Origin: Olivibacter domesticus
GTDB taxonomy: Bacteria; Bacteroidota; Bacteroidia; Sphingobacteriales; Sphingobacteriaceae
Length of the DNA stretch: 64,000 bases
Direction: 5' to 3'
Assembly (NCBI RefSeq): GCF_900109575.1
Contig: NZ_FOAF01000013.1
Span: forward strand, 1 to 64,000
Position numbers and translations under genes: made by a program. Under the pieces are notes generated by a model. The model saw only the letters and a list, made by a program, of their open reading frames with translations, had not been told where the DNA came from and made no database searches. Positions 1 to 15,268 of this stretch are shown here, piece after piece (the stretch's first letter is position 1; each line of letters opens with the position of its first letter).

Positions 1-741
1 GAAAAAGCGACTATACTTGTTTCCAACAACATCCAACGTATCTAACTGATTCCTCTTTATTTCGATCAAAAATGAATCCCCTACTTTACTTTGTCTAGTG
101 GAAATATTATTGTCGTGTCTTCTATAATAAACGAAAGCTTGGTTAAAGACGTAAATAGCATGCTTCTCTGCAATTCTTACAAAAAGATCATAATCCTCAA
201 CAGGAGCCATCTCCCGATAGCCTCCTACTTGTAATGCTATGTCTTTCCTAAAAATAGCGCTAGAATTCACAAAGATATTTGTGAAGAAAAGTTCTGCTTT
301 GAAATTAGCTTTTTTCAACTTTCTTTTATTTACAGCCTTATCAATTATTTTTCCATCACTATCTATAACAACTGCATTGCTACCACATAAGGCAACAGCG
401 GGATTTCTTTCCATAAAATCATACTGAATGCTCAAACGTCCTGGCATTGCAATATCATCGCTGTCTAATATGGCAACGTATCTTCCTAAGGATGCGTTTA
501 ATGCAGCGGTTCGGGCACAAAACAACCCCTTATTCGTATCATTGTGAATATACTTTATCCTTGGATCATTAATAGAATTGACTATATCTTGAGTATTATC
601 CGTTGACCCATCATTGTAAATTAACAATTCAAAATCTGTAAAAGTCTGATTCAAGACACTATTTATGGATTCATAAATATATGTACCCGCGTTGTAAGTC
701 ACCATTAAAACTGTTATAGAAGGAGGAGCCGTAAGATTCAT
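1..741 (-). CDS. GT2 family glycosyltransferase, C-terminus outside window
   Basis: The frame is open for 247 codons from the ATG at 741 down to base 1, so the C-terminus lies outside the window. The N-terminus has the GT-A nucleotide-binding start (SITVLMVTYNAG, about residues 8-19), then NDGSTDN and the DSDD metal-binding motif in the segment YVAILDSDDIAMPG. A later VEDYDLFVR segment matches the usual ED motif of the acceptor site. The family transfers a sugar from a nucleotide-sugar, usually to a lipid-linked glycan at the inner face of the cytoplasmic membrane. It diverges from the GT6 gene at 859 and is the first of ten transferases here. Donor and acceptor cannot be told from sequence. 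Confidence 0.9.
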   Translation of the reverse strand, partial: MNLTAPPSITVLMVTYNAGTYIYESINSVLNQTFTDFELLIYNDGSTDNTQDIVNSINDPRIKYIHNDTNKGLFCARTAALNASLGRYVAILDSDDIAMPGRLSIQYDFMERNPAVALCGSNAVVIDSDGKIIDKAVNKRKLKKANFKAELFFTNIFVNSSAIFRKDIALQVGGYREMAPVEDYDLFVRIAEKHAIYVFNQAFVYYRRHDNNISTRQSKVGDSFLIEIKRNQLDTLDVVGNKYSRFF

Positions 742-858
742 AATATTATAAACTATGTTTTACATTAGAAAGCTACAAAATTTAAAAAAATGTAGCAAGT
801 ATGAGAAAATAACGTTAATATTCGAGAATCCATTAAATTAGCAATAGATACCATTATA

Positions 859-1674
859 ATGAAAAAAGTTGCAGTATTATATATATGTACGGGAAGATAT
901 TCGATCTTTTGGAAAGATTTTTATAAGTCTGCCAAAAGCAAACTTTTCGCAAATAGTTCTTTAGAGTTTTTTGTGTTTACTGATCAAGATATTGACGTCT
1001 CTACTAACGATGTTCATTTAATTTATCAGGAGAAAATGGGTTGGCCTTACGATACTTTAATGCGTTTCCATCTTTTCTCTAAAATTAAAGATGAGCTAAA
1101 ACATTTTGACTACATTTTTTTTATGAACGCAAACTTGATTGTTGAAAAGGAAATATCCAGTTCACTACTTCCCGACAAAGAAGATTTATTTGGCGTTATT
1201 CATCCGGGCTTCTATAATAAAGACCCTGCCGAATTCACCTACGAAAGAAATTCTAAGTCGACTGCTTACATTCCTCAAGGAAAAGGTCATCATTATTTTA
1301 TGGGTGGCTTCAATGGCGGAAAATCATCCGCTTTCATTCAACTTATTGAGCAGCTTTCTTCAAATATACAAATGGATTTGGATAACAATATTATCGCTAT
1401 ATGGCACGATGAATCGCATCTTAATAGATATTTTCTGGACCACCAAGAACGATTGAAAATTGTCGGCCCTGAATATGGGTATCCACAGGGATGGAATCTT
1501 CCTTTAGAAAGGAAAATAACCATCTTAGATAAGACAAAATTCGGTGGGCATTCGTTTTTAAGAAATGAAAAACAAGAGTTAAATTTAAGCAATAGATCAA
1601 CTTCTATTTCAAAAGGAGGGATGCCAAAACAAGGATTGATCGATAAAATATTTCGTTATTTTCGTAAGAAATAG
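859..1674 (+). CDS. GT6 family glycosyltransferase (ABO/BoGT6a-like alpha-1,3-Gal or GalNAc transferase)
   Basis: The 271-aa protein closely resembles Bacteroides ovatus BoGT6a as I recall it: LYICTGRY and FWKDFY near the N-terminus, MGWPYDTLMRFH (60-71), HPGFYNK, FTYER, STAYIPQG and IWHDES (181-186). Where mammalian GT6 enzymes carry the metal-binding DXD, this one has Asn-Ala-Asn (90-92), the NXN form of bacterial metal-independent GT6 enzymes. Glu185 in WHDE corresponds to the catalytic glutamate. The donor-selecting loop reads Met148-Gly149-Gly150; human A and B transferases have Leu/Gly and Met/Ala at the outer positions, so Gal versus GalNAc stays open. It converges on a GT11 fucosyltransferase gene with 11 bp between stops; GT6 enzymes act on Fuc-alpha-1,2-Gal, which that enzyme would make. 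There is no signal peptide, so it is cytosolic. Confidence 0.93.
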   Translation: MKKVAVLYICTGRYSIFWKDFYKSAKSKLFANSSLEFFVFTDQDIDVSTNDVHLIYQEKMGWPYDTLMRFHLFSKIKDELKHFDYIFFMNANLIVEKEISSSLLPDKEDLFGVIHPGFYNKDPAEFTYERNSKSTAYIPQGKGHHYFMGGFNGGKSSAFIQLIEQLSSNIQMDLDNNIIAIWHDESHLNRYFLDHQERLKIVGPEYGYPQGWNLPLERKITILDKTKFGGHSFLRNEKQELNLSNRSTSISKGGMPKQGLIDKIFRYFRKK

Positions 1675-1685
1675 TCTGTTCGACT

Positions 1686-2537
1686 CTAAATTTTAATCCA
1701 GTTTTCAGGGTGCATCCTAAAGGTTTCGGTGCCGTAGGGTGACCTATACCAAACTCTGGGAACAACTATTATTTTTGAGGGGCTTCTATTTAACCAAGCC
1801 GCCCACCAGGAAAAACTGCTATTCGATATTATCGCATGTTTACAACAGCTCATTAGCTGCATATCGAGATAACTTTCGACACCGAGATTCCAATCTACAA
1901 AAGTTGATTTTTCAACACCTAAGTTTTCTCTACACCATTTTATATCATCAGAAAATATATAATAAGTTGGATCGATCAGTTTTTCTTCAATTGTTGAAAT
2001 CCCTTTTAAAAAATACTCTTTGTCTGCCAATCCATTTAATAATGGATATTTCGCATAATCTCCGCGTCTAACATGTATAGCTACACTTTCAGTCCCCTGC
2101 ATTTTTTGCGATATATCGATGTTCCTTAAGCTTTTAAATGGAGTAAATGCAAACTCCTTATGCAGCAGCTTTTCTATGCGTTGCAAATAATTACAATGCT
2201 GCCAATAACCTTTATAATAGCGAGAATCACCACCAAAATGTGTTGAGTTGTATTTAAACTGCTCCTCCTCCTCATAATATGGCTCTCTAATAGAAAAGAG
2301 TTTTCTCAACACACGATATTTTTTTTTATTTTTTGTATAAAGACTGAGCTGAAAAGATGAAGCGAGGTTCACATTTATCTTGAAAACAGTTGAAAGCTCA
2401 AAACCATTATGGTCAGCTAATCGGTCATACATAGTCAGGTCCGCCTTAACCAAATTAGAATTGTATTCCAACCGTTTATAAAAAGCATATTGAAACATTT
2501 GATTACCCAGTCCTCCTTCAAAACCAACAATTTTCAT
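1686..2537 (-). CDS. GT11 alpha-1,2-fucosyltransferase
   Basis: The 283-aa protein has the three family hallmarks: an N-terminal GGLGNQMFQYA segment (8-18), the GDP-fucose motif HVRRGDY (155-161), and FSDD (195-198) followed by NSSFSWWAAWL (239-249). Length is normal for bacterial GT11 proteins such as FutC, WbsJ or WcfB. The family transfers L-fucose from GDP-fucose to the 2-OH of a terminal galactose, giving the H-type structure Fuc-alpha-1,2-Gal. The gene converges on the GT6 gene, whose relatives need exactly this acceptor, so the two probably act in sequence on one glycan. No GDP-fucose synthesis genes (gmd, fcl) are in the window. Confidence 0.92.
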   Translation of the reverse strand: MKIVGFEGGLGNQMFQYAFYKRLEYNSNLVKADLTMYDRLADHNGFELSTVFKINVNLASSFQLSLYTKNKKKYRVLRKLFSIREPYYEEEEQFKYNSTHFGGDSRYYKGYWQHCNYLQRIEKLLHKEFAFTPFKSLRNIDISQKMQGTESVAIHVRRGDYAKYPLLNGLADKEYFLKGISTIEEKLIDPTYYIFSDDIKWCRENLGVEKSTFVDWNLGVESYLDMQLMSCCKHAIISNSSFSWWAAWLNRSPSKIIVVPRVWYRSPYGTETFRMHPENWIKI

Positions 2538-2712
2538 TTACTATATTTTCATGTTTCTAGATCTGACAAATACCTTTTTCAGCCGTCTTCTTAAAATACA
2601 TGAATAAAATCACTTATTAGATTTTAATGAATATAAGTATTGTAACAAAACGGTTTACAAATTTAAAAATTTGATATACTTTTACCGCCGAACTTGACAA
2701 CAAATCGACGAA

Positions 2713-3717
2713 ATGATAAAAATTGAATTCTCAGTAATAATTTGTTCATTCAATCCTGATAAAAGATTACTTGATAGAGCACTGAGAGCAATATGTAATC
2801 TCGAGTCGTCCGGCTACAAAACAGAAATTATTTTAGTTGATAACAACAGTAATCCTCCTTTAAAAGAACAAGAATATATAATTTCTTATTTAAACCACTT
2901 TTCAGAAATAAAAATTATAGTAGAAAGTGCCCCTGGTTTGATGAATGCTCGTATTACGGGCATAGAATCTTCTCGAGGAAAGAATATAATTTTCTTTGAT
3001 GACGATAATGAGCCTGAAAAAGAATATCTGATAGAACTCGAGAGATTAAAACGAAAATATCCAGAAGTTGGGTGCTGGGGACCGGGAATTGTTGACGTTG
3101 ATTTTTTAGATGGTGTTGATAATGAAGTTGAAGAATATGCAAGATTTATATTTCAAGAAAGAAATGAAATTGATGTGAGGTTTTCAGATAAAAAAGCCTG
3201 GCAAACATGCTATCCGTTCGGTACAGGTTTATGCCTTGAACGACCATTATTGTTAAAATTCATTGATTTAGTTAAAAACGGAACATATACTTTAACAGGA
3301 AGAAAAATGGGCCAGCTATCAAGCGGGGAAGATTTACAAATGGTTTTATTTTTCATAAAAAATGGCATGGCCGCGGGCGTCTCACCAGGCTTAAGGGTTA
3401 CGCATATGATACCTAAAAAGCGAACCGCTCATTCCTATCTTAAAAAAATCTCTTTCGGTACAACCGTCGCTGTTCCTATCAGTCAACTACAGATCTTTCC
3501 TGAATTCGGATCTGATTTAAAAAAAGACATGTACCCTATTTTTAGATTCTCTAAAAAGGCTCTATTTACGATGGCAAAAATATACTTCATAAAAGATCGA
3601 ATTAAGCAATATAAGTTAATTTCTTTTATTGCATATAGATATGGAATTTATCAAGCATTTAATAAATGCATACCGAAGACTGTACGATTCGTAGTTAAAG
3701 TTCTAAAGCTTATTTAG
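2713..3717 (+). CDS. GT2 family glycosyltransferase
   Basis: The 334-aa protein has a GT-A N-terminal half: FSVIICSFNPD at residues 6-16, VDNNSNPP at 42-49, a DDD motif at 96-98 in IIFFDDDNEPEKEYL, and SGEDLQM about residue 211 as acceptor-side acid motif. The C-terminal 100 residues are basic and hydrophobic, suggesting peripheral membrane contact. The gene is divergent from the GT11 gene, and its last 8 bp overlap the end of the convergent GT2/GT4 gene. The family is certain; the sugar added is not known. Confidence 0.88.
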   Translation: MIKIEFSVIICSFNPDKRLLDRALRAICNLESSGYKTEIILVDNNSNPPLKEQEYIISYLNHFSEIKIIVESAPGLMNARITGIESSRGKNIIFFDDDNEPEKEYLIELERLKRKYPEVGCWGPGIVDVDFLDGVDNEVEEYARFIFQERNEIDVRFSDKKAWQTCYPFGTGLCLERPLLLKFIDLVKNGTYTLTGRKMGQLSSGEDLQMVLFFIKNGMAAGVSPGLRVTHMIPKKRTAHSYLKKISFGTTVAVPISQLQIFPEFGSDLKKDMYPIFRFSKKALFTMAKIYFIKDRIKQYKLISFIAYRYGIYQAFNKCIPKTVRFVVKVLKLI

Positions 3718-5854
3718 AAATCGATTCCAGTATTTTCGAAACTGAATTCGATGAGTAACGATTTATAACTTCAAACGAGTTTTTGGAAAGTTTTCTCCAT
3801 AAATTCTCGCTTTGATATAATCTGATTATCTCATTCGAAAAACTTATAATATCATCCGCTATCAATACGTGTTCATTATGCTCCAAATCCATCCCTTCCG
3901 CTCCTATTGAAGTGGTTACCACAGGTAAACCATATTCTAAACTCTGACCTATCTTCCCCTTCATACCGGCTCCGGCTCTTAACGGAGCTACGAAAACACG
4001 GCTTTTGTTAAAATATGGAGAGACGTCTTTAATGTACCCCGGAACACTTACTAAATCGGAACGTAGCGATTTAACCGAATCTGGAGGGTTGCTTCCTAAT
4101 AAAGTTAGATGCAGGTTTGGTAGGGTTTGCCAAACCAATGGCATTATTTCGTTAACCAACCATATTACAGCATCTGTATTGGGTATATGATCGTAACCAC
4201 CAATAAAACAGACACCTTCTCGAGTATTGTAATCTAGCAATTCGATATCTTTGCTAACTTCATGTATATTAGGAACGACAACAACCTTTTTAGCTCCTTC
4301 CGATTCTAAAATACCCTTTTCATAAGAAGTTATAGCAATTGTAATGTCTGCTCTTTTTGCCAGGCCAATTTCCTTCTCTTTAATTTTAGCAATATAATGT
4401 TCAATATCAGCACTCTGTCGGTTTTGTTGCCTCATCATCCTCTCTTCTCGTAAAAAATGTAAATCTACCGTATCATTAATCCACGTTATATGACCAAATG
4501 ACTCAATCAACGATGCATAATATTGATTCATTTCCAGCCGAGAAATCCACACAAAATTTATGTTTTCTAACAAGTAGGCGTATTCATCTTCCAGTAGATC
4601 ATCTTTAAACTGTTTGTAAATAACTTTTACGTTCTTATTTATTAAATTTTTATAATATTCGCCAAAATTAGCATATTCTTTATGTCCATAGAAAAACACA
4701 TTGTAACCAAGATTCAAATAAATATTTATTATCTCGTCTAATCTCCTCGAGCCGGAATCTTTATCTGGAGTCGGATAGAAAGGATCTATAAACAAAATAG
4801 ATTTAGCACTTTTTTGTGTAAAAGAATAACCCATTGTCATTAGATCTCTTTTATTCTTTTTAGTAGAAAAATGATAGCGAACACTCTTTATAGAATCTAA
4901 AATAACACCCAATGCAAGCGGTTGAAAAACAACCCTTTTACATAGCTCGTTTTTAATAAAAACAGACAATTCAACGGCTGAAAACTCAGACCAGTTGTTG
5001 TAACGCAACCTTGACAAAGCTTTGCAAAAGTCAGCCTTGCGTACCAATACTAAAGAAGATTGAAAGTCTGTTTCTTTTATATAAGAGAACTCGTATTTTT
5101 CAGGATCACTGAATTCGCCAAAATATTTATACTGCTTATCATCTGTAATAACTCCTCCAGCCTCTTTGAGGAGGCCAAACTCATATATAATCTTCGCTCC
5201 TACCAAACCTATATCAACCTTACTACGTATAACTTTCAATAAGTTTTTTAAATAATCTTCACAAACGAATAAGGGGTTCGTAATAAAACAAACAAACTTG
5301 CTCGTAGCTCGACTTAAGAAATTATGCAAGTCTGATATATCATCAGGATGTTCTCCAACAAACTCAACACCCGGCATATCTATCTTATTCTGTAATAGAT
5401 AATCTTGAAGATTTATATAGTCAACTACTATTAAATGGCATGAAATTCCCATTGAATTTTGGTCAATTGATTGTAGACTTCTTAACGCATTCTGAATCGT
5501 GCCACAAACATAAATTACTATCGTAACCTCAGACGTATCGCTGTCAAAATGATTTAATAACTTAAATTCGCCTTTGAAAAGTGTCTCCATTCTCCACAGT
5601 TTATATATGCCTAGTAATCGCCCAATTTTTTTGCCGAAAGACAGCCTTTTATATGCTTGGAAATTGATCCTATTAAATCTAAATAATGTAACAAGTAATA
5701 CAAATATCCGAACTACTAAAGCTTTTAAAAACACGAAGTTGAGCAGGCACCTAAGAAAACTTCTATCATATTTAATGAAATATATCTGAGTTAATAATAG
5801 AGAGACTCCTCGATCTAATCTATCTATTTTTCTAGTAAATTTTTTTGAAGCCAT
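3710..5854 (-). CDS. Two-domain glycosyltransferase: degenerate GT2-like domain plus GT4 domain
   Basis: The 714-aa protein has three parts. Residues 1-100 are basic with a hydrophobic stretch near 42-60 that could anchor it to the membrane. Residues about 105-330 have GT2 spacing (VTIVIYVCG, later LIVVDY and LVGAKIIYE) but read ITNPL where an acidic NxD/DXD motif is expected, so this half may have lost catalysis. Residues about 350-714 form a GT4 domain with FIDPFYPTPDKDSGSRR, FIGGYDHIPNTDA, PLRAGAGMKGKIGQSLEYG and GLPVVTT, including the donor-binding Lys and Glu. The gene is followed downstream by a convergent GT2 gene and lies 12 bp from the next leftward GT2 gene, probably one transcript. 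Linkage and sugar are unknown. Confidence 0.85.
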   Translation of the reverse strand: MASKKFTRKIDRLDRGVSLLLTQIYFIKYDRSFLRCLLNFVFLKALVVRIFVLLVTLFRFNRINFQAYKRLSFGKKIGRLLGIYKLWRMETLFKGEFKLLNHFDSDTSEVTIVIYVCGTIQNALRSLQSIDQNSMGISCHLIVVDYINLQDYLLQNKIDMPGVEFVGEHPDDISDLHNFLSRATSKFVCFITNPLFVCEDYLKNLLKVIRSKVDIGLVGAKIIYEFGLLKEAGGVITDDKQYKYFGEFSDPEKYEFSYIKETDFQSSLVLVRKADFCKALSRLRYNNWSEFSAVELSVFIKNELCKRVVFQPLALGVILDSIKSVRYHFSTKKNKRDLMTMGYSFTQKSAKSILFIDPFYPTPDKDSGSRRLDEIINIYLNLGYNVFFYGHKEYANFGEYYKNLINKNVKVIYKQFKDDLLEDEYAYLLENINFVWISRLEMNQYYASLIESFGHITWINDTVDLHFLREERMMRQQNRQSADIEHYIAKIKEKEIGLAKRADITIAITSYEKGILESEGAKKVVVVPNIHEVSKDIELLDYNTREGVCFIGGYDHIPNTDAVIWLVNEIMPLVWQTLPNLHLTLLGSNPPDSVKSLRSDLVSVPGYIKDVSPYFNKSRVFVAPLRAGAGMKGKIGQSLEYGLPVVTTSIGAEGMDLEHNEHVLIADDIISFSNEIIRLYQSENLWRKLSKNSFEVINRYSSNSVSKILESISK

Positions 5855-5866
5855 TAATATCTTAAG

Positions 5867-6802
5867 TTAGTTATTGAGTTCTATCTTCTTTGAACTTAAC
5901 TTAGACCAGTAGGCACTGAGCAATGCTTTTAATTTTGAAACTTTTTTTGATAATGGTCTGCGGAATAAATTCTCAATATCTCTTTTTATATTATTGTCAT
6001 TAACCTGACTTTTTCTGTGCCAGTACAGCTTCAAATGCCTTTTATACGAAAGAAAATACTCTCTATCTACAATAAGCCCATTGGTATATAAATAATTAGC
6101 TATCTTCATTCCCTCTAAAACATCAATACAATTTCTTTTAGAAGACGTAGTTAAATCCTTACCATGTTTTCTAAAATAATTTAAAACCCTCCCGCTAATA
6201 TGTATTTTTCCTAATTGCGCTAACTGAATCCAAAAAAACCAGTCGCCGCAATAGCGATAATCCATATATTCTTTAGAAATTTTATTATATAATGCCTTTC
6301 TCCAAATGGCCATACTAGCGTTAAATATTGCCGGTTTCTCGGATAAGAAACTTCTGATGAACTCCTTGCCTGAAATCACTTCACTTAATTTATTATGATG
6401 TGATTGCCATCTGATTTCGCCTCCAAATAAAACTGAACTCTGACAATAACTAATTGCACAATTTACATCTATTTCCATTTGTCCTACCAGAGCGTCTAAA
6501 AACCCCGGCTCGCACCAATCGTCACTCTCAGCTATCCAAATATATTGACCTTGCGCAAGGTTTATTCCTCTATCCCACTGTTGAAAAGCACTGCCGCTGT
6601 TTGTTGTGTTGTAGATAATGTTACTCACTTTCTCATGAGAACGATATTGCTCAATGTAGTATTTACTATCGTCTGTGGAGCAATCATCCAGTATAATAAC
6701 TTCGAAATCGGAGAAGGTTTGATTTAAAATTGAATCTAGTCGAGCTTTCAGAAACTCCCCATGGTTGTAATTTGGAACTATTACACTTACCAACACACTC
6801 AT
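5867..6802 (-). CDS. GT2 family glycosyltransferase
   Basis: The 311-aa protein begins VLVSVIVPNYNHGEFL (3-18), then ILDDCSTDD and the metal-binding ESDD at 92-95 inside QYIWIAESDDWCEPGFL. YCGDWFFWIQLAQLG resembles the conserved DW segment of GT2 proteins annotated as putative rhamnosyl or galactosyl transferases. The C-terminus is strongly basic. It lies 12 bp upstream of the two-domain GT gene on the same strand, so the two are likely co-transcribed. Donor specificity cannot be assigned. Confidence 0.88.
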   Translation of the reverse strand: MSVLVSVIVPNYNHGEFLKARLDSILNQTFSDFEVIILDDCSTDDSKYYIEQYRSHEKVSNIIYNTTNSGSAFQQWDRGINLAQGQYIWIAESDDWCEPGFLDALVGQMEIDVNCAISYCQSSVLFGGEIRWQSHHNKLSEVISGKEFIRSFLSEKPAIFNASMAIWRKALYNKISKEYMDYRYCGDWFFWIQLAQLGKIHISGRVLNYFRKHGKDLTTSSKRNCIDVLEGMKIANYLYTNGLIVDREYFLSYKRHLKLYWHRKSQVNDNNIKRDIENLFRRPLSKKVSKLKALLSAYWSKLSSKKIELNN

Positions 6803-6959
6803 AACCTATATTTTAAGGTTTTTATTTCACGTTATATCTGTAATACCACGAACACTCCCTTGGCAATTTACAAAAATTGTCATAAATTGTATAAAAATGA
6901 ACTCCAGTGGTAGGATTTATTAAACTAAATTCGAGACTTCCACAATACCAATCTAAATA

Positions 6960-7784
6960 TTAGATCATTTCAAGCTGCGGCACCTGCGGTACAGGGTGTA
7001 TCTCATGATACCCATTTTGACAGCGTTTGATATTTTCCTCTAAGGTCTTTCTCAAAGAAAACTCGTGTTTATTTTCCTGTTTACGCGAGGCAATTCGATG
7101 TGTTATGTGATATTGTATGGCCTTTAATTTGAGGCCTTTTCTCATAACACCACTATTCACTAAACGTGCTGCTAGTTCCTCATCTTCATGGCCCCAACCT
7201 TGTAAATCATTGCTATAACCATTTACTGCGACAAAATCTTTTTTCCAAAAAGCCACATTGCAGCCTCTTACACTTTTGGAACAGCTTCTCTTTTTTGTAA
7301 AAACCCAAGCCATAAATGGAATACGCAGGGCATTAAATCTGTTTTTTATTCCCTTGTTATAATAAGAGAAATGAACTCGTTTTTCTTCAAAAATGGATGG
7401 AAGTAACTCTTCTTTTATATGCGCGCGCGTCCCTCTAATAAAAGTTTTTGTTTCGACAACACTCAGATGATCTTTGATAAAATTCGAATCTAAGATAACA
7501 TCTCCATCAATTTGAACAATATATTCGCTCGAAGCAACTTTTACCGCTTTGTTTAATATCAAAGACTTCCTAAAGCCTTTATCTTCATGCCAAACATGGT
7601 GCACAGGAACGGAGAATTTCGTTCTTAATTGTTTTATTAGTTCCTTCGTTAATGCTCTAGAACCATCATCGGCAACTATGATCTCATTTGGCATATATGA
7701 CTGATTCATTACACTCTTTAAACAAAGATTTAGTGCCTCTGGCCAGTTATATGTAGATATTATTAACGAAACGGATGGATGCAT
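6960..7784 (-). CDS. GT2 family glycosyltransferase, paralogue 1 of 4
   Basis: An upstream ATG at 7829 would add 15 residues. I prefer the ATG at 7784: the protein then starts MHPSVSLIISTYNWPEAL and is 274 aa, like its three paralogues (269, 276, 276 aa) in this window. Motifs are IVADDGS, VWHEDKGFR, the catalytic IDGDVIL and GWGHEDEELAARL, the last resembling the C-terminal domain of galactosyltransferase family 7. This DGD plus GWGHED layout is common in Bacteroidota GT2 proteins and in LPS core transferases. A Cys and Arg-rich insertion (KKRSCSKSVRGCN) is not present in the paralogues. Substrate unknown. Confidence 0.85.
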   Translation of the reverse strand: MHPSVSLIISTYNWPEALNLCLKSVMNQSYMPNEIIVADDGSRALTKELIKQLRTKFSVPVHHVWHEDKGFRKSLILNKAVKVASSEYIVQIDGDVILDSNFIKDHLSVVETKTFIRGTRAHIKEELLPSIFEEKRVHFSYYNKGIKNRFNALRIPFMAWVFTKKRSCSKSVRGCNVAFWKKDFVAVNGYSNDLQGWGHEDEELAARLVNSGVMRKGLKLKAIQYHITHRIASRKQENKHEFSLRKTLEENIKRCQNGYHEIHPVPQVPQLEMI

Positions 7785-8190
7785 AAATTTTTCTAATCTT
7801 AAAACACTCTGATACGAAACGGATACCAACTGTGAAATGCTACAAATTGAATCTCATAATATCAACATTTTTTGTGCCAAAAATGATTTGTTTCATTCAT
7901 TGACATTTTTACTACGTAGCAAATTACGACAAATATATGTTTTCCAAGTTGTTTTCTTTCTTATCAAAGAACAAAATGAGTTTATTTATAAGCGTACACT
8001 ACAAATAAAAAAGATACTGAACAAAATGATCGTTATTATCTTTAAAAAGCAGACAGAATATTTTAGCTTGAAAGCTATTGATCAAGAAATTTTCAAGAAT
8101 CACTTGAAATAGATCAACAGATACCTACTTTTGTACAATTCTTAGATATTATCATTATAGAATATTTATAAGTATACCTAATTCAATAGA
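7785..8190. other. Divergent intergenic region between two GT2 paralogues
   Basis: This AT-rich stretch separates two paralogous GT2 genes transcribed away from each other. A 91-codon open frame at 7837-8112 has no recognisable domain and a composition typical of random AT-rich DNA, so I do not call it a gene. A good promoter for the rightward gene sits at 8104-8133. No hairpin or repeat of note was seen. Confidence 0.5.
8104..8133 (+). promoter_or_regulatory. Bacteroidota-type promoter for GT2 gene at 8191
   Basis: TTG at 8104-8106 is followed after 19 bp by TACTTTTG (8126-8133), matching the Bacteroidota -33 TTG and -7 TAnnTTTG pattern. The expected start near 8140 leaves a leader of about 50 nt. 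Confidence 0.55.
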
Positions 8191-9000
8191 ATGGCTGTAT
8201 CAAACGCGAACACAACATTAATTATATCGACTTATAATTGGAAAGAAGCACTTGAGTTGTCTCTTCTAAGCGCCATAAATCAAACTAATCCCCCAGCTGA
8301 AATTATTATCGCAGATGACGGTTCTAGAGAGGATACAAAAACACTAATTGATACGTATAAAAGCAAGCTAAGAATACCTGTTACTCACATATGGCAAGAA
8401 GACAAGGGCTTTAGACTTGCAAGCGTTCGGAATAAAGCCATTGCTGCTAGTACAAAAGATTACATCATTCAGATTGATGGTGATATCATTATGCATCCGG
8501 AGTTTATAGCCGATCATTGTCGCTATGCCCAAAAAGGGGTATTTCTTCAAGGATCGCGAGGAATACTAACCGACCGGTACACAAAAGAACTACAAAATAA
8601 AAAATCCATTTCTATCAGTCTGCTAGATACTGGCCTCACTAGAAAAGAAAATGCTATTCGTTTTCCTCTTCTCACTAAATTGCTTCTCAAAAGGCACAAA
8701 CCTAAATATCCAATTTATTTTACTAAAGGCGCTAACCTCTCATTTTGGAAGAGTGATCTTCTAAAAGTAAATGGATATAATGAGGCATTTGAAGGATGGG
8801 GGCATGAGGATAGCGAGCTTGCTTTAAGATTGATTAATATTGGCGTTAAAAAATTTCATCTTAAATTTTCGGCAATAGTATATCATCAATATCATAAAGA
8901 GGATGAATCAAAATTCAATGAGCCCCTAAATCGTAAAATATTAAATAAGGCTCTTGAAATGAAATTAATTTGGACAGACAACGGTATTACTAAAAAATAA
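8191..9000 (+). CDS. GT2 family glycosyltransferase, paralogue 2 of 4
   Basis: The 269-aa protein shares the layout of the genes at 6960, 11511 and 12328: TLIISTYNWKEALELSL, IIADDGS, IWQEDKGFRLASVRNKAI, QIDGDIIM (catalytic DGD) and GWGHEDSELALRL. It is most like the 11511 product, sharing GANLSFWK or GANMSFWK and the KVNGYNE segment. There is no signal peptide and it probably acts at the cytoplasmic face of the membrane. It ends 5 bp before the convergent hslR stop. Sugar donor and acceptor are unknown; scattered close copies suggest gene duplication followed by specialisation. Confidence 0.88.
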   Translation: MAVSNANTTLIISTYNWKEALELSLLSAINQTNPPAEIIIADDGSREDTKTLIDTYKSKLRIPVTHIWQEDKGFRLASVRNKAIAASTKDYIIQIDGDIIMHPEFIADHCRYAQKGVFLQGSRGILTDRYTKELQNKKSISISLLDTGLTRKENAIRFPLLTKLLLKRHKPKYPIYFTKGANLSFWKSDLLKVNGYNEAFEGWGHEDSELALRLINIGVKKFHLKFSAIVYHQYHKEDESKFNEPLNRKILNKALEMKLIWTDNGITKK

Positions 9001-9005
9001 CGGTG

Positions 9006-9410
9006 CTATTTATCGTCATCAAAGAAATCCTCCTTCAAATCATCAATTTCTCGCCTATCCTTCTTGGTAGGCCGCCCTGTTCCTCTATCTCTCCGTAATA
9101 TCGGAGCATGGAAAGCGGATTTGTACCCATAAGTATCTTCAATAGGTGTTTGATCTTCATAATAAAGAGCGGCTGTCTTAGCATCCATACGCTTTTCCAG
9201 TAAGTCCACCACCCTAATCACTTTCTTTTCAATACCTTTCTGTATATGATACACCTCACCTACCTTCACTACATAAGACGGTTTAATGTTCTGTCCACTT
9301 AATTTCACTTTGCCTGCCTTACATGCTTCGGTAGCCAAGCTTCTCGTTTTAAAAACACGAATAGCCCAAAGATATTTATCAATTCTTAATTTCTCTATCT
9401 CCTTAGTCAT
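9006..9410 (-). CDS. hslR: S4-domain RNA-binding protein, Hsp15 family
   Basis: The 134-aa protein begins with an S4 RNA-binding domain: LRIDKYLWAIRVFKTRSLATEACKAG and then GKVKLSGQNIKPSYVVKVGE (about residues 8-56). The tail is charged and ends in an acidic run. Hsp15 binds 50S subunits carrying a stalled peptidyl-tRNA and helps rescue them. It lies 13 bp downstream of the GT4 gene on the same strand, so it may be co-transcribed with it, although the functions look unrelated. Confidence 0.85.
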   Translation of the reverse strand: MTKEIEKLRIDKYLWAIRVFKTRSLATEACKAGKVKLSGQNIKPSYVVKVGEVYHIQKGIEKKVIRVVDLLEKRMDAKTAALYYEDQTPIEDTYGYKSAFHAPILRRDRGTGRPTKKDRREIDDLKEDFFDDDK

Positions 9411-9423
9411 TACGCTCTCAATT

Positions 9424-10407
9424 TTAATTCGTCCAAGGTAAAAATTTTGGTGTATTAATCTCCTGCAATACAGGAATGGCTTTATTTAATGCCTGCCCCT
9501 CAATAACCTGTTTATATTTCTCTAGGTAATCTAGCGCCATCTTTTTAGATAAAAAATTATCGCAGACGTACTCGTAACAGCTCTTTCGATTAAATGTTTC
9601 AACTTCACGCACGGCATCTGCCAAAGCACTACAGCTACTTGACAAATGGCCTACTTCCGGTACTATCAGTTCAGGCAAAGCCCCATATGGTGTACCAAAT
9701 ATTGGACAGCCTAAATACAAGCTCTCCATCATTGCAATCCCGAAAGGTTCATGCCAACGAACAGGAAAAATCATTCCTTTTGATCTGGCAATAAGATTAT
9801 TTTTTTCCTCTCCTCCTACCATTCCCCTAAATTTAACATTCGGATTAAATGTAAACCTAAACCCCATTTTAATATTCAGACGCGTTCCGCCGAGTACAAA
9901 TAAGGTCTCCTTAGCCGCAACTGCTACATCAATTGCACCTCGAACATTTTTAGTGCGCCAAGCAGCTTTTCCCAAAAAATGGAAATAGCTTCTTTTATAG
10001 CTAAAGTTGGGTTTCCCATATTCTTCTGCATCAATTCCATTATATACATAAGCGGTTGCGCCATAACGTGTAGCATGGTCATTCGACACAAATACAGAGT
10101 TAATGGAGAATGGCCTAGAAGACGAGCTATTACCATGTATAGTAACAATATGGGGTTTATCTGTATAATTGTTTATAGGATAATGAAAATGGACCACATC
10201 TGCATCTACAGGAATTTGACTTTCCAGTGTTCGTTTTTCATCTCGCACAATGATCTTTCCGTAGTGACCATACGATCCTTCGCTTACTAAATAGGTAACC
10301 TCATGTCCCATCTTGCTCAACTCCTTCCCTAACCAGCATATGATCCGCTCAATCGCGCCATATTTTAAAGCGGGTATACAGACATTTCCTACGAGTACTA
10401 TTTTCAT
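9424..10407 (-). CDS. GT4 family glycosyltransferase
   Basis: The 327-aa protein has a GT-B fold signature: MKIVLVGNVCIPALKYGAIER at the N-terminus, HFHYPINN, VTIHGNSSSSRP, then FLGKAAWRTKNVRGAID and the donor-binding WHEPFGIAMMESLYLGCP with the EX7E glutamates. A GAxER segment and an N-terminal glycine-rich turn are typical of GT4 enzymes using UDP- or GDP-sugars. It is a retaining transferase by family. It stands alone among GT2 genes and precedes hslR. Substrate unknown. Confidence 0.87.
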   Translation of the reverse strand: MKIVLVGNVCIPALKYGAIERIICWLGKELSKMGHEVTYLVSEGSYGHYGKIIVRDEKRTLESQIPVDADVVHFHYPINNYTDKPHIVTIHGNSSSSRPFSINSVFVSNDHATRYGATAYVYNGIDAEEYGKPNFSYKRSYFHFLGKAAWRTKNVRGAIDVAVAAKETLFVLGGTRLNIKMGFRFTFNPNVKFRGMVGGEEKNNLIARSKGMIFPVRWHEPFGIAMMESLYLGCPIFGTPYGALPELIVPEVGHLSSSCSALADAVREVETFNRKSCYEYVCDNFLSKKMALDYLEKYKQVIEGQALNKAIPVLQEINTPKFLPWTN

Positions 10408-10424
10408 TCAAAAATTAAAAAATA

Positions 10425-10432
10425 CAAAGATA
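10425..10432 (-). promoter_or_regulatory. -7 promoter element for the GT4-hslR unit
   Basis: On the minus strand this reads TATCTTTG, a match to TAnnTTTG, 17 bp upstream of the GT4 start. No clear TTG was seen 19-20 bp further upstream, so only the -7 part is supported. Confidence 0.4.
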
Positions 10433-10480
10433 ATTCTTTTCGAACTAGATTAGCACCTAGTTTTTGTCCTATTTTAACGA

Positions 10481-10488
10481 TAAATTTG
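10481..10488 (+). promoter_or_regulatory. -7 promoter element for dapD
   Basis: TAAATTTG matches TAnnTTTG and lies 28 bp before the dapD ATG. The nearest upstream TTG (10464-10466) has a spacer of only 14 bp, so the -33 element is weak or absent. Confidence 0.4.
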
Positions 10489-10516
10489 CTTTCTTTGTTA
10501 AACTTTTATATTAAAG

Positions 10517-11335
10517 ATGACCGCAGAATTAAAAAAATTAATTGAAGAGGCCTGGGAAGAAAGGCATTTAATAGAATTCAAAGAATACCGTGAGGCTATT
10601 GAAACGACGATATTACATTTAGATGAGGGCACTTTACGTGTGGCAGAAAAAGTGGCCGGCCGTTGGCATATAAACGATTGGATAAAGAAAGCAGTAATAC
10701 TTTATTTCCCCATCCGCCAGATGAATGAAATACACGTTGGCCCTTTTGTTTTTCATGATAAAATGAAACTTAAAACAAACTATAAAGAGCAAGGGGTTCG
10801 AGTGGTTCCTCATGGTTTAGCTCGCTATGGTGCATATTTAGCCAAAGGTGTTATTTTGATGCCTTCTTATGTAAATATTGGTGCTTATGTCGATGAAGGT
10901 ACGATGGTTGATACTTGGGCTACTGTTGGCTCTTGTGCACAAATTGGCAAAAATGTTCATTTAAGTGGTGGTGTTGGAATCGGAGGTGTTTTAGAGCCCG
11001 TACAAGCGGCTCCGGTAATCATTGAGGATAATTGCTTCCTTGGTTCTCGTGCAATTGTAGTCGAAGGGATACGTGTCGAAGAAGAAGCTGTATTAGGAGC
11101 AAATGTTGTACTAACAGCTTCTACCAAAATTATTGACGTTACAGGTGATGCACCTAAAGAATACAAAGGTGTAGTTCCTGCCAGATCAGTAGTAATTCCT
11201 GGCTCGTATACAAAAAAGTTTCCTGCTGGAGAATATCAGGTACCTTGCGCGCTAATTATTGGCCAAAGAAAAGAATCAACGGATAAAAAGACATCTCTTA
11301 ATAATGCATTGAGAGATCATAATGTTGCTGTATAG
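10517..11335 (+). CDS. dapD: 2,3,4,5-tetrahydropyridine-2,6-dicarboxylate N-succinyltransferase
   Basis: The 272-aa protein matches DapD in length and in its left-handed beta-helix of hexapeptide repeats (about residues 105-215), including MPSYVNIGAYVDEGTMVDTWATVG split by SCAQIGKNVHLSGGVGIGGVLEP, and a C-terminal RSVVIPGSYTKKFPAGEYQVPCA. DapD transfers succinyl from succinyl-CoA to tetrahydrodipicolinate in the diaminopimelate route to lysine and peptidoglycan. It is a cytosolic trimer. It interrupts the GT series and seems to be a housekeeping gene around which GT genes were inserted or duplicated. Confidence 0.97.
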   Translation: MTAELKKLIEEAWEERHLIEFKEYREAIETTILHLDEGTLRVAEKVAGRWHINDWIKKAVILYFPIRQMNEIHVGPFVFHDKMKLKTNYKEQGVRVVPHGLARYGAYLAKGVILMPSYVNIGAYVDEGTMVDTWATVGSCAQIGKNVHLSGGVGIGGVLEPVQAAPVIIEDNCFLGSRAIVVEGIRVEEEAVLGANVVLTASTKIIDVTGDAPKEYKGVVPARSVVIPGSYTKKFPAGEYQVPCALIIGQRKESTDKKTSLNNALRDHNVAV

Positions 11336-11348
11336 CAATGAAAATATT

Positions 11349-11483
11349 GGGGCGTCTAAAACACCGTCATTTCGAACGAAACATTTGAAGTAAAGAAATC
11401 CTTATCGGTAACTACTCCTTTATCAGATTTCTCCGTTATGCTTTGCTTCAGTCGAAATGACGGCTACAGACTGCTTAGACCCC
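11349..11483. repeat. Long imperfect inverted repeat (REP/MITE-like element)
   Basis: Three nested complementary blocks form one long hairpin. The outer arms are GGGG and TCTAA (11349-11359) against TTAGACCCC (11475-11483). The middle arms are CCGTCATTTCGA near 11364 against TCGAAATGACGG ending near 11463. The inner arms are AGAAATC (11394-11400) against GATTTCT (11426-11432). No ORF is inside. The CGTCATTTCGA...GAAATC wording is that of dispersed palindromic repeats I recall from many Bacteroidota genomes. It fills the gap between dapD and a GT2 gene and could also end dapD transcription. Confidence 0.7.
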
Positions 11484-11510
11484 TTTTAGAGGTAATTTTA
11501 ACTGACAAAA

Positions 11511-12341
11511 ATGTCTGATTTGCCTAGAAGCTGCTCGCTCATCATTTCTACCTATAATTGGCCTGAAGCACTGGAGCTTACGCTAAAAAGTATCATGCGT
11601 CAGAACAGAATACCTGACGAGGTAATCATCGCTGATGACGGTTCTACAAACCACACGGGCACTTTGATTAAGCATTATAAGAATGTTTTTCCCACTAAAT
11701 TAGTTCACGTTTGGCACGAAGATCGGGGTTTCAGGTTGGCTAATATACGTAATAAAGCTTTTGCAGCGTCAACCGGAGATTATATTATCCAAATTGATGG
11801 AGACATTATCTTACATCCAAAATTTGTGGAAGATCATTTAGCATTTGCTCACCCAAATTGTTTATTGCAGGGTTCAAGGGTAATGCTTGGCAAAAACAGG
11901 TCGAAAATTTTATTAAAACAAAAAGAAACACATACATCCTTTTTTAATACCGATATAAAACGACGCGAAAATGCCATTAGATGCCTTGCCTTATCTAACT
12001 ACTTATTAACACGGTATAAAAACAAGTACCCCATTTATTATGCGAGGGGTGCAAATATGTCTTTTTGGAAGGAAGATATTTTGAAGGTTAACGGATATAA
12101 TGAAAGTTTTGAAGGCTGGGGACATGAAGATAGCGACCTTACCTTAAGGATGTTAAATAATGGATGTAAAAAATATGTACTGAAATTTAGTGCTATAGCT
12201 TATCATCTTTTTCATCCAGAAAATAAGTCGGCGGAAAAAGAAATGGTCAATAAAAAACTTTTAGAAGAAACTTACCGCAATAAGGTCATTTGGACTCAGA
12301 ATGGTTTGAATAAGTACTTGATTAATCATGAGCACCAATAA
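11511..12341 (+). CDS. GT2 family glycosyltransferase, paralogue 3 of 4
   Basis: The 276-aa protein has SLIISTYNWPEALELTL near residue 9, IIADDGSTN, VWHEDRGFRLANIRNKAF, QIDGDIIL (catalytic DGD) and GWGHEDSDLTLRML. It is closest to the gene at 8191 in the middle and C-terminal parts (GANMSFWKEDILKVNGYNESFEGWG is broken here only by single substitutions). Its last 14 bp overlap the start of the next GT2 gene, which implies translational coupling. The MITE-like repeat lies just upstream and no clear TAnnTTTG box was seen. Substrate unknown. Confidence 0.88.
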   Translation: MSDLPRSCSLIISTYNWPEALELTLKSIMRQNRIPDEVIIADDGSTNHTGTLIKHYKNVFPTKLVHVWHEDRGFRLANIRNKAFAASTGDYIIQIDGDIILHPKFVEDHLAFAHPNCLLQGSRVMLGKNRSKILLKQKETHTSFFNTDIKRRENAIRCLALSNYLLTRYKNKYPIYYARGANMSFWKEDILKVNGYNESFEGWGHEDSDLTLRMLNNGCKKYVLKFSAIAYHLFHPENKSAEKEMVNKKLLEETYRNKVIWTQNGLNKYLINHEHQ

Positions 12342-13158
12342 GCTTCCTACTTCAACACTAATTATTGCCACTTATAATTGGCCAAAAGCACTTGAAAAAT
12401 GTATACAAAGTGCTTTTAAACAAACAGTGTTACCCAATGAAATCATTATTGCCGATGATGGTTCTGGAGAGGAGACTAGACAGTTAATCAATACACTCAC
12501 ATTACCTTCCCCCATACCTATCCATCATATATGGCATACAGATAACGGCTTTAGATTAAGCGAGATAAGAAATAAAGCAATAGCCGCCGCACAATTTGAT
12601 TATATTATTCAAGTTGATGGGGATATTATCATGGAGGAGCATTTTATCGAAGATCATCTAAAAATGGCCAAACCTAAGGCTTTCATTTGTGGAAGCCGTG
12701 TGAAGTTAGAAGAGCTGCCCAGTAAAAAAATACTCGCACAGAACAGTCTTTCTATCAGCAAAAAGGAAATGTCATTTGGATATGTGTTGAATAGTTTCAG
12801 ATCACCGCTATTGGGGCATTTATTAGCTGATCGTTATAAACGGAACCAACCGACCGTTTTAAGGGGTTGCAACATGTCTTTTTGGAAAAAGGATTTGATA
12901 AGTATCAATGGCTATAACAACGATATTACCGGTTGGGGCAGTGAGGATGCTGAGTTAGCTGTGCGCTTAATAAATAGTGGTGTAAAAAAAAGGTTTCTCA
13001 AATTTATGGGAATAGTTTTTCATATTTACCATAAAGAAAGTGACAGAACCAATCAGCCTAAGAATAAACAAATACTCAAGGGAGCAATTGAAAATAAAAC
13101 AACCTGGGTAAAAAATGGAATTAAAAAAGAACATGATCATGAAGGAAGATCTTTCTAA
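12328..13158 (+). CDS. GT2 family glycosyltransferase, paralogue 4 of 4
   Basis: The 276-aa protein starts MSTNKLPTSTLIIATYNWPK and carries IIADDGSGEET, IWHTDNGFRLSEIRNKAI, QVDGDIIM (catalytic DGD) and GWGSEDAELAVRL. In the last motif His of GWGHED is replaced by Ser, unlike the three other copies. It overlaps the preceding GT2 gene by 14 bp and its end overlaps the beginning of the longest reading of the YrdC-domain frame. The tight packing suggests one transcript 11511-15268. Substrate unknown. Confidence 0.87.
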   Translation: MSTNKLPTSTLIIATYNWPKALEKCIQSAFKQTVLPNEIIIADDGSGEETRQLINTLTLPSPIPIHHIWHTDNGFRLSEIRNKAIAAAQFDYIIQVDGDIIMEEHFIEDHLKMAKPKAFICGSRVKLEELPSKKILAQNSLSISKKEMSFGYVLNSFRSPLLGHLLADRYKRNQPTVLRGCNMSFWKKDLISINGYNNDITGWGSEDAELAVRLINSGVKKRFLKFMGIVFHIYHKESDRTNQPKNKQILKGAIENKTTWVKNGIKKEHDHEGRSF

Positions 13159-13702
13159 CGCCCTTGAAGTACTTAAATCTGGTGGAATTATACTTTATCC
13201 TACTGATACTATATGGGGTATAGGATGTGACGCAACAAATCCTGAGGCCGTGGAAAAAGTTTATAAGTTAAAAGGGCGTTCAAAGGATAAGAGCCTTATC
13301 ATTTTGCTTGAAAATGAAAATAGATTATCAGGTTATGTTAATGATATTCCGGAGGTTGCTTATGAGCTAATTGAATTTTCGGAAAAGCCCTTGACTATTA
13401 TTTACTCAAAAGCAAAAAATCTTGCACCAAACCTTTTAGCAGACGACGGCACGATAGGCATCCGCATTGTTAAACATCGCTTTTGTGAACAACTCATCCA
13501 ACGCTTCAGAAAACCTATTGTTTCCACGTCTGCCAATATAAGCGGCGAACCATCACCGAAAAATTTTCATGATATAAGTGATGAAATTAAAGCGGGAGTA
13601 GATTACATCGTACAGTTTGAACAAGAAGATCTTACACCTAAACAGGCGTCCACCATCATGAAGTTAGATCCTAGCGGTGCTTTCTCTTTTATCCGAAAAT
13701 AA
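13139..13702 (+). CDS. L-threonylcarbamoyladenylate synthase (Sua5/YciO/YrdC family)
   Basis: Three in-frame ATGs exist at 13115, 13133 and 13139. I chose 13139 (MKEDLSNALEVLKSGG, 187 aa) because homologues as I recall start just before this segment; the longest form would overlap the GT2 gene by 44 bp. Family motifs are GGIILYPTDTIWGIGCDA, KGRSKDKSLIIL, EKPLTIIYS, GIRIVKHRF and PIVSTSANISGEPSP. YrdC-domain proteins make threonylcarbamoyl-AMP from threonine, bicarbonate and ATP for the t6A37 modification of ANN-decoding tRNAs. The protein lacks the C-terminal Sua5 domain, so it is the short TsaC-type. It lies next to the CCA-adding enzyme gene. Confidence 0.9.
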   Translation: MKEDLSNALEVLKSGGIILYPTDTIWGIGCDATNPEAVEKVYKLKGRSKDKSLIILLENENRLSGYVNDIPEVAYELIEFSEKPLTIIYSKAKNLAPNLLADDGTIGIRIVKHRFCEQLIQRFRKPIVSTSANISGEPSPKNFHDISDEIKAGVDYIVQFEQEDLTPKQASTIMKLDPSGAFSFIRK

Positions 13703-13703
13703 C

Positions 13704-13742
13704 AAGCTTTACGCTTTTTGCTTTAAAGCTCTGTGCTTTTTA
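13704..13742. repeat. Low-complexity GCTTT-type intergenic repeat
   Basis: The segment is built of degenerate GCTTT words (AGCTTTACGCTTTTTGC, TTTAAAGCTCTGTGC). A very similar run occurs at 22042-22079 at the end of sucD. Both sit at a gene end. Confidence 0.45.
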
Positions 13743-13819
13743 GTATTTTTCATCTAAATTTAAAAGCCCTGATGGCAGATGAGAGATCGATAAGATGCTT
13801 TTATATGCTATTTTGTATA

Positions 13820-13850
13820 TTGCATATAAAAGGCATTTTATCTAAGTTTG
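13820..13850 (+). promoter_or_regulatory. Promoter for cca (TTG-N20-TAAGTTTG)
   Basis: TTG at 13820-13822 is followed after 20 bp by TAAGTTTG at 13843-13850. The TTGCATATAAAAG start and the ATCTAAGTTTGC end are almost identical to the lysS promoter at 32230-32260 and similar to the truA promoter. Only 8 bp separate the box from the ATG at 13859, so the mRNA would be nearly leaderless. Confidence 0.65.
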
Positions 13851-13858
13851 CCGAACAG

Positions 13859-15268
13859 ATGAAAGAACACCTGCAACTACCGATTTTTGAAGAATTAAGC
13901 AATCTAGCACACGAGCACAGGGTAGATATTTATGTTATAGGCGGGTACGTTCGCGATCGGTTGATGAACAGATCCTTCAAGAATGACATAGATATACTAG
14001 TTCTCGGCAGCGGAATTGACTTTGCTGAAAAAGTTGGAGATCACCTCAAAACAAAAGTATCTGTATTCCGAAATTTTGGTACTGCTATGTTACGCTATGA
14101 TCATATCGATGTTGAATTTGTAGGTGCAAGAAGAGAATCTTACAGAAAGGACTCCCGTAAACCGATAGTGGAAGATGGAACATTGGCAGACGACCAGAAA
14201 AGACGGGATTTTACTATTAATGCAATGGCATTGAGCTTAAATAAAAACAATTATGGTGAGCTCCTTGATCCATTCAATGGAATAAAAGATATACAAATAC
14301 GCACTATCCGCACCCCGTTGGATCCACAGGAGACCTTTTCTGATGATCCATTACGTATGATGCGTGCAATACGTTTTGCGACGCAATTGAAGTTTAAAAT
14401 TGACTCCGCTACATTTAACGCGATCAAAGCGCAAAAAGAGCGTATTAAAATAATTTCCCGTGAACGCATTACCGATGAACTTAACAAGATTATATTAGCG
14501 GATAAACCCAGTATCGGATTTAATTACCTATTCGACACGGGGCTGCTTCCACTCATATTCCCTTTGATGTCACAACTATTTGGTGTGGAGATGATAAATG
14601 GTAAAGGACACAAAGATAACTTTTACCATACCTTGGAGGTGCTGGATAATATCGCGGAGCTAAGTGATGATCTATGGCTAAGGTGGGCGGCTATATTGCA
14701 CGATATTGCTAAACCTGCTACGAAACGCTTTGATAAAAAAGTGGGTTGGACGTTTCATGGTCACGAGGATAAGGGGGCCAGAATGGTGCCCAAAATATTC
14801 GCCGACCTTAAACTACCCCTCAATGATAAAATGAAGTTTGTGCAAAAATTAGTACTACTTCACCTCAGACCTATCGTGTTAGCACAAGATATCGTCACCG
14901 ACTCAGCAGTCCGTAGGTTATTATATGAGGCGGGCGATGATATTGACGGCCTAATGAAGCTTTGTCACGCCGATGTAACCACTAAAAATGAGTATAAACG
15001 AAAGAAGTACCGCGAAAATTTTGAGCTGGTAAAACAAAAGCTGAAGGATGTTGAAGAACGCGATCAAATGAGAAATTGGCAACCTCCTATAAGCGGGGAT
15101 GACATCATGAAAGCTTTTGGAATTCCGCCTGGACGTGAAGTTGGTTTAATAAAGAAAGCCATCCGGGAGGCGATATTGGAAGGAGATATAAAAAATAATC
15201 GGGAAGAGGCATTGCACTTTATGAAACAGAAAGGCAAAGAACTCGGGCTAACGGCGCTTCATTCTTAA
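13859..15268 (+). CDS. cca: CCA-adding tRNA nucleotidyltransferase with HD domain
   Basis: The open frame reaches back to 13733, but the first 42 codons are not conserved-looking and contain the promoter, so I start at ATG 13859 (MKEHLQLPIFEEL, 469 aa). The head domain has IGGYVRDRLMNR and the metal-binding KNDIDILV, then RRDFTINAMAL and DPFNGIKD, with the RNA-binding region near DDPLRMMRAIRFATQL. The HD domain follows (ILHDIAKPATK, FHGHEDKG, KLVLLH). The enzyme adds CCA to tRNA 3' ends. The tRNA genes in this window do not encode CCA, so this enzyme is needed. Length is as expected for the class II bacterial type in this phylum. Confidence 0.95.
   Translation: MKEHLQLPIFEELSNLAHEHRVDIYVIGGYVRDRLMNRSFKNDIDILVLGSGIDFAEKVGDHLKTKVSVFRNFGTAMLRYDHIDVEFVGARRESYRKDSRKPIVEDGTLADDQKRRDFTINAMALSLNKNNYGELLDPFNGIKDIQIRTIRTPLDPQETFSDDPLRMMRAIRFATQLKFKIDSATFNAIKAQKERIKIISRERITDELNKIILADKPSIGFNYLFDTGLLPLIFPLMSQLFGVEMINGKGHKDNFYHTLEVLDNIAELSDDLWLRWAAILHDIAKPATKRFDKKVGWTFHGHEDKGARMVPKIFADLKLPLNDKMKFVQKLVLLHLRPIVLAQDIVTDSAVRRLLYEAGDDIDGLMKLCHADVTTKNEYKRKKYRENFELVKQKLKDVEERDQMRNWQPPISGDDIMKAFGIPPGREVGLIKKAIREAILEGDIKNNREEALHFMKQKGKELGLTALHS

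Follow-up and report, generated by a model that had tools for sequence, protein, structure and literature searches.

In Escherichia coli O86, the GT11 enzyme WbnK and the GT6 enzyme WbnI synthesise first the H and then the B structure for the O-antigen (PMC4202792, PMC4506291). A further bacterial member of GT6, BoGT6a of Bacteroides ovatus (PDB 4AYJ, 4CJ8), is a metal-independent A-antigen synthase which acts on 2'-fucosyllactose (Fuc-alpha-1,2-Gal), giving an A-type structure (PMC3961637). With these two systems the concept of bacterial A/B-type synthesis is already known; what goes beyond it here is the breadth of the linkage between GT6 and GT11 genes, the fusions of the two and the gene sets carried by phages.

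The window analysed (the whole stretch of 64,000 nucleotides) covers the initial 64 kb of contig C18; the genome as a whole measures 6.78 Mb, and GT6 and GT11 are each represented in it by a single copy. According to the first-pass annotation, a GT11 gene and an ABO-type GT6 gene lie side by side with 11 bp between their stop codons, and the ORF and Pfam data agree with this, as does NCBIfam for the GT6. The adjoining genes are complete and convergent (Table 1). A single operon comprising both was considered and is ruled out by this orientation, and because the genes converge their co-expression is not given. A search for a Bacteroidota promoter-like pattern yielded no site near the pair, and the occurrence of the pattern was not above chance.

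Table 1. Features of the glycosyltransferase locus in the window and of the GT6/GT11 fusions in other loci
Sequence	Coordinates	Strand	Feature	Remarks
Window	1..741	-	GT2 glycosyltransferase	cut by contig end; Pfam
Window	859..1674	+	GT6 (ABO-type alpha-1,3-Gal/GalNAc transferase), predicted	complete ORF, 271 aa; NXN motif N90-A-N92, catalytic E185, donor-selecting M148/G150
Window	1675..1685		gap between two convergent stop codons	11 bp
Window	1686..2537	-	GT11 (alpha-1,2-fucosyltransferase family)	complete ORF, 283 aa; HVRRGDY motif, GT-B fucosyltransferase-like predicted fold
Window	2713..3717	+	GT2 glycosyltransferase	
Window	3710..5854	-	714 aa protein with C-terminal GT4 domain	
Window	5867..6802	-	GT2 glycosyltransferase	
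Window	6960..7829	-	GT2 with GT7 C-terminal-type domain	type recurs at the same locus in 3/4 sister species
Window	8191..9000	+	GT2 with GT7 C-terminal-type domain	
Window	9424..10407	-	GT4 glycosyltransferase	
Window	10517..11335	+	DapD, conserved anchor of variable locus	92-98% identical in four sister species
Window	11511..13158	+	two GT2/GT7C glycosyltransferases	
Window	13115..13702	+	YrdC, conserved right-hand boundary of variable locus	
L109	7998-9629		fusion, GT6 then GT11	543 aa; Planctomycetota bin
L119	2098-3741		fusion, GT6 then GT11	547 aa; bin labelled Ca. Kuenenia
L106	3870-5366		fusion, GT11 then GT6	498 aa, GT11 start missing; Gastranaerophilales bin

The product of the GT6 gene matched PF03414 (121.7 bits against a cut-off of 25; E = 3.6e-35) and NCBIfam NF041524 (326 bits against a cut-off of 250). 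Among the solved structures, phmmer placed BoGT6a as its top relative (E = 2.3e-71; 49% identity), followed by the human ABO transferases (E about 6e-29; about 32% identity). The residues of BoGT6a involved in UDP-GalNAc binding or catalysis have been listed previously (PMC3961637). Of its donor and catalytic residues, T11, Y14, W62, R69, N90, H115, T127, G150, W182, H183, D184, E185 and K225 are kept in the aligned GT6 of the window, including the acceptor His (H115) and the HDE motif with the catalytic Glu (H183-D184-E185), and one donor-contact residue is changed (D65, equivalent to N69 of BoGT6a). Human GTA and GTB, which with FUT1 and FUT2 represent the same two enzyme families as the window pair and the same predicted order of reactions, are metal-dependent and differ in possessing a metal-binding DXD motif, which is replaced by N90-A-N92 in the window GT6. 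Judged from its sequence, this NXN is the mark of a metal-independent bacterial GT6 of the BoGT6a type. The AlphaFold2 prediction (pLDDT 90) gave a TM score of 0.93 to BoGT6a (4cj8, normalised to the target) and about 0.7 to the human ABO enzymes, and the modelled fold appears to be of the GT-A type, as in both.

The human positions 266/268, which determine A/B selectivity, are occupied by Leu/Gly in the A synthase and by Met/Ala in the B synthase, Met266 and Ala268 having been argued to block GalNAc and Gly268 to leave room for it (PMC4692239). The corresponding residues of the window GT6 are the B-like Met148 and the A-like Gly150, a combination that matches neither the A nor the B pair and differs also from the Ala/Gly of BoGT6a, the chemistry of which is demonstrated, whereas that of the window enzyme is predicted. 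Because the two residues are mixed in this way, the predicted donor is left between Gal and GalNAc, with A not separable from B.

The GT11 product matched PF01531 with 118 bits (cut-off 23.9; E = 6.3e-34); it had no NCBIfam matches, and none of the solved structures is related to it in sequence. Within its HxRRGD motif, residues R157, R158 and D160 are invariant in nine homologues. The top matches of the predicted structure (pLDDT 83) were plant FUT1, NodZ and FUT8, with a modest TM score of about 0.5; all three are fucosyltransferases. Two gmd genes on contig C4 and one fcl gene on contig C19 (69% identical to that of a relative) were found in the same genome, so that GDP-fucose can be made in this organism. 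The GT11 family also includes an alpha-1,3-fucosyltransferase, HhFT2 (PMC4202792).

Among 301 genomes of Sphingobacteriaceae, GT6 was detected in 8, one of them with a weak partial match, and GT11 in 141. GT11 is the next gene in 7/8 full-length GT6 copies of the family when that of the window is counted, and in 6/7 without it. For comparison, 14 loci of GT25 and 30 of GT8, two further glycosyltransferase families, were taken from Sphingobacteriaceae genomes as a control, and none of these 44 had a GT11 gene within about 1.5 kb (Fisher test, p = 6e-8 with the window and 4e-7 without). Given adjacency in 7/8 copies and in 0/44 control loci, the neighbourhood is not a matter of chance. The sole exception is a congener (G037), in which no GT11 gene lies within about 9 kb of GT6. 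The GT6 of this congener (L137:9352-10164) is divergent, with a VLGGINGG motif and HFEL in place of the acceptor-side HPGF, and may use another acceptor.

The genomes of 84,980 species were then scanned for GT6, and the best 80 loci were analysed. Many phyla are represented among them, according to organism labels that were taken from the records, many of which are metagenome bins and possibly mislabelled. GT11 was present in the examined stretch of 59 of these 80 loci, in 58 at no more than 3.5 kb from GT6 and in 40 either fused to it or at most 300 bp away. The other 21, including those of Helicobacter, Paenibacillus and some alphaproteobacteria, had no GT11 in the stretch examined. In the 50 loci with a separately called GT11, it was the immediate neighbour of GT6 in 35, as against 9.0 expected if its position among the genes of that locus were random. 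The position of GT11 varies between downstream, upstream and convergent, and at least 28 changes of arrangement were counted on the GT6 tree, a raw count in which "no GT11 found" is a state and some contigs are short. The layout of the window is seen again in Bacteroides cutis (L080), where a convergent GT11 slightly overlaps GT6. In Bacteroides sp. GM023 (L077), the GT6 of which is 86.8% identical to BoGT6a, a convergent GT11 lies 24 bp away; BoGT6a itself clusters with its convergent-GT11 relatives in the tree. The co-occurrence of the two genes in relatives, proposed in the first-pass annotation as a check of the pairing, is thereby strongly borne out, by the family counts, the best loci and the fusions described below.

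Several other arrangements were observed among these loci. The GT6 closest to that of the window (59%) is found in a Riflebacteria bin (L043:1527-10259) and is followed within 8 kb by manC-, fcl- and gmd-like genes and GT11; almost the whole pathway may thus be encoded in one place. In two Nomurabacteria bins (L053:7998-9581 and L058:7998-9578) the GT6 ORF is extended at its C-terminal end by about 270 aa of unassigned kind, and in another locus (L066) GT6 is joined to further GT2-like and GT4-like domains.

In three loci GT6 and GT11 are fused within a single ORF, and both domain orders occur (Table 1). The two fusions that start with GT6 group together in the GT6 tree with strong support, on a branch apart from the third. 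As the domains have been fused in opposite orders, the fusions are good evidence that GT6 and GT11 share one pathway; by their sequences, they are candidate bifunctional A/B-antigen synthases. No description of such fusions, or of the breadth of the linkage, was found in the literature searched; a review of 2010 on bacterial GT6 (Brew and colleagues) lies outside it, and priority is not claimed for the fusions.

GT6 was also detected in 71 phage records, mostly of Synechococcus phages; two cyanophages with GT6 have been noted before (PMC3961637). In P-SSM2, ACG-2014f and S-8S56, as in the window, GT11 adjoins GT6 or lies close to it, up to three genes away. These sets differ from the window pair in being phage-encoded and usually accompanied by GT25, and their GT6 proteins are about 32-34% identical to the viral query, L123. 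This viral contig (7353-13788) harbours GT25-like, GT6, GT11, fcl-like and gmd-like genes within 6.5 kb, and in ACG-2014f a GDP-mannose dehydratase and an epimerase are likewise encoded beside GT11/GT6. With such a gene set, fucosylated tips of the A/B type could be produced in the course of infection. Among the loci examined, four from phages (L123, L193, L194 and L195) have GT6 together with GT11; GT25 is often present as well, and some of them also have gmd and fcl-like genes.

In the window, the pair lies in a run of glycosyltransferase genes in both orientations (1-13158) beside housekeeping genes, and the G+C content is 33.6% over positions 1-9000 versus 37.8% to the right of 13115. The conservation of DapD in four congeneric genomes indicates that the contig belongs to the genus. 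In these four, the equivalent locus is bounded by S4, DapD, YrdC and poly(A) polymerase and contains other glycosyltransferase genes, with no GT6 or GT11 among them; its content differs among all five genomes (window 1-13158; L203-L206). GT9 heptosyltransferases are encoded at the same locus in G063 and G015, together with a Kdo/WaaP-type kinase in G063, and a GT6/GT11 pair of the Sphingobacterium group (G273) is also located near a GT9 gene. These genes, with the variable content, suggest a hypervariable LPS-core locus that may have acquired the GT6/GT11 pair. In the window locus, which the contig end cuts at position 1, neither a flippase nor a polymerase was recognised. A protein O-glycosylation locus was considered as the context but is not supported, since the fucosyltransferase conserved in such loci of Bacteroidetes belongs with GT2 and not with GT11 (PMC8698959).

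The best reading is a terminal Fuc-alpha-1,2-Gal that bears an alpha-1,3-linked Gal or GalNAc as its cap. GT11 would use GDP-fucose to place L-fucose on O2 of a terminal galactose, forming the H-type disaccharide. GT6 would next attach Gal or GalNAc, donated by the UDP-sugar, to O3 of that galactose, with retention, and the product would be a branched trisaccharide tip of B or A type. The genes lie in a variable surface-glycan locus, probably that of the LPS (lipooligosaccharide) core. We consider such a two-step capping module, with that probable destination, likely. The proposal of an H-then-A/B-like module made in the first-pass annotation is supported by the linkage, and the catalytic residues and the modelled fold agree with BoGT6a; the host, described there as likely free-living or environmental, may be free-living, judging from its family and relatives. 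Counted against the module are the 21 best loci and the congener that lack GT11, the convergence of the genes, the Met148/Gly150 pair and the presence of HhFT2 in GT11. The likeness to E. coli O86, drawn from the published pathway, is that one GT11 and one GT6 would serve one surface glycan. O86 differs in assembling a polymerised O-unit on undecaprenyl-PP, whereas the window holds convergent genes, of predicted chemistry, in an LPS-core-like locus of Sphingobacteriaceae.

Alternatively, GT6 and GT11 may act on the same glycan but not sequentially, GT6 making an alpha-1,3 linkage, of an unfucosylated alpha-Gal type or some other, and GT11 modifying a different residue. Mammalian alpha3GT, likewise a member of family GT6, uses unfucosylated Gal and counts in favour of this possibility, as do the GT6 genes without a GT11 neighbour. 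A linear B structure has also been described (PMC4202792). The existence of fusions of either order and the close adjacency, found again and again, nevertheless make non-sequential action unlikely, and BoGT6a, grouping with convergent-GT11 relatives, uses a fucosylated acceptor. It is very improbable that the GT6 donor is a sugar other than Gal or GalNAc, since the characterised bacterial enzymes BoGT6a, WbnI and BgtA use UDP-GalNAc or UDP-Gal and the donor-site residues are conserved, even though NCBI has named NF041524 "family 6 glucosyltransferase" and the Met/Gly selectivity residues are mixed. That the neighbourhood is a functionally meaningless by-product of a gene-dense variable locus in this genome, as its mosaic of glycosyltransferase genes in both orientations might suggest, is scarcely credible when GT11 lies within 1.5 kb of 6/7 GT6 copies (7/8 with the window) and of none of the GT8/GT25 loci.

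Beyond the sequential capping proposed for the window, GT6-GT11 may represent a widely exchanged two-gene cassette for A/B-type trisaccharide tips of surface glycans, mainly of environmental bacteria and marine phages, repeatedly assembled with varying gene order and at least twice fused into a bifunctional enzyme; we regard the chances of this as evenly balanced. If true, blood-group-like epitopes would be a common microbial glycan motif and not host mimicry. Host mimicry as the main role is not favoured, many linked pairs coming from environmental lineages and phages. The observations lead to a testable rule, namely that bacterial GT6 usually travels with GT11, by which H/A/B-type sugars are to be expected in a large number of unstudied bacteria and cyanophages. 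This bears on the possible origin of natural anti-A and anti-B antibodies and on whether such epitopes mean host mimicry or a general diversification of surface glycans. The predicted natural bifunctional GT6-GT11 enzymes are, in addition, potential tools for synthesis.

The destination of the glycan is not universal, as in two genomes (G161 and G223) the pair lies beside genes resembling a polysaccharide ABC exporter, the sequences having been judged by eye. In G223 (L138:5721-15699), the order GT6-GT11-GT25-GT25 is flanked on one side by a leader peptide and an aspartyl protease and on the other by HlyD and a C39-peptidase ABC exporter, the sole C39 exporter among the loci with which it was compared. 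The peptide encoded there (13710-13976) has a double-glycine-type leader (...LKKVMGG/TGSGIGNC...) and is possibly glycosylated and secreted.
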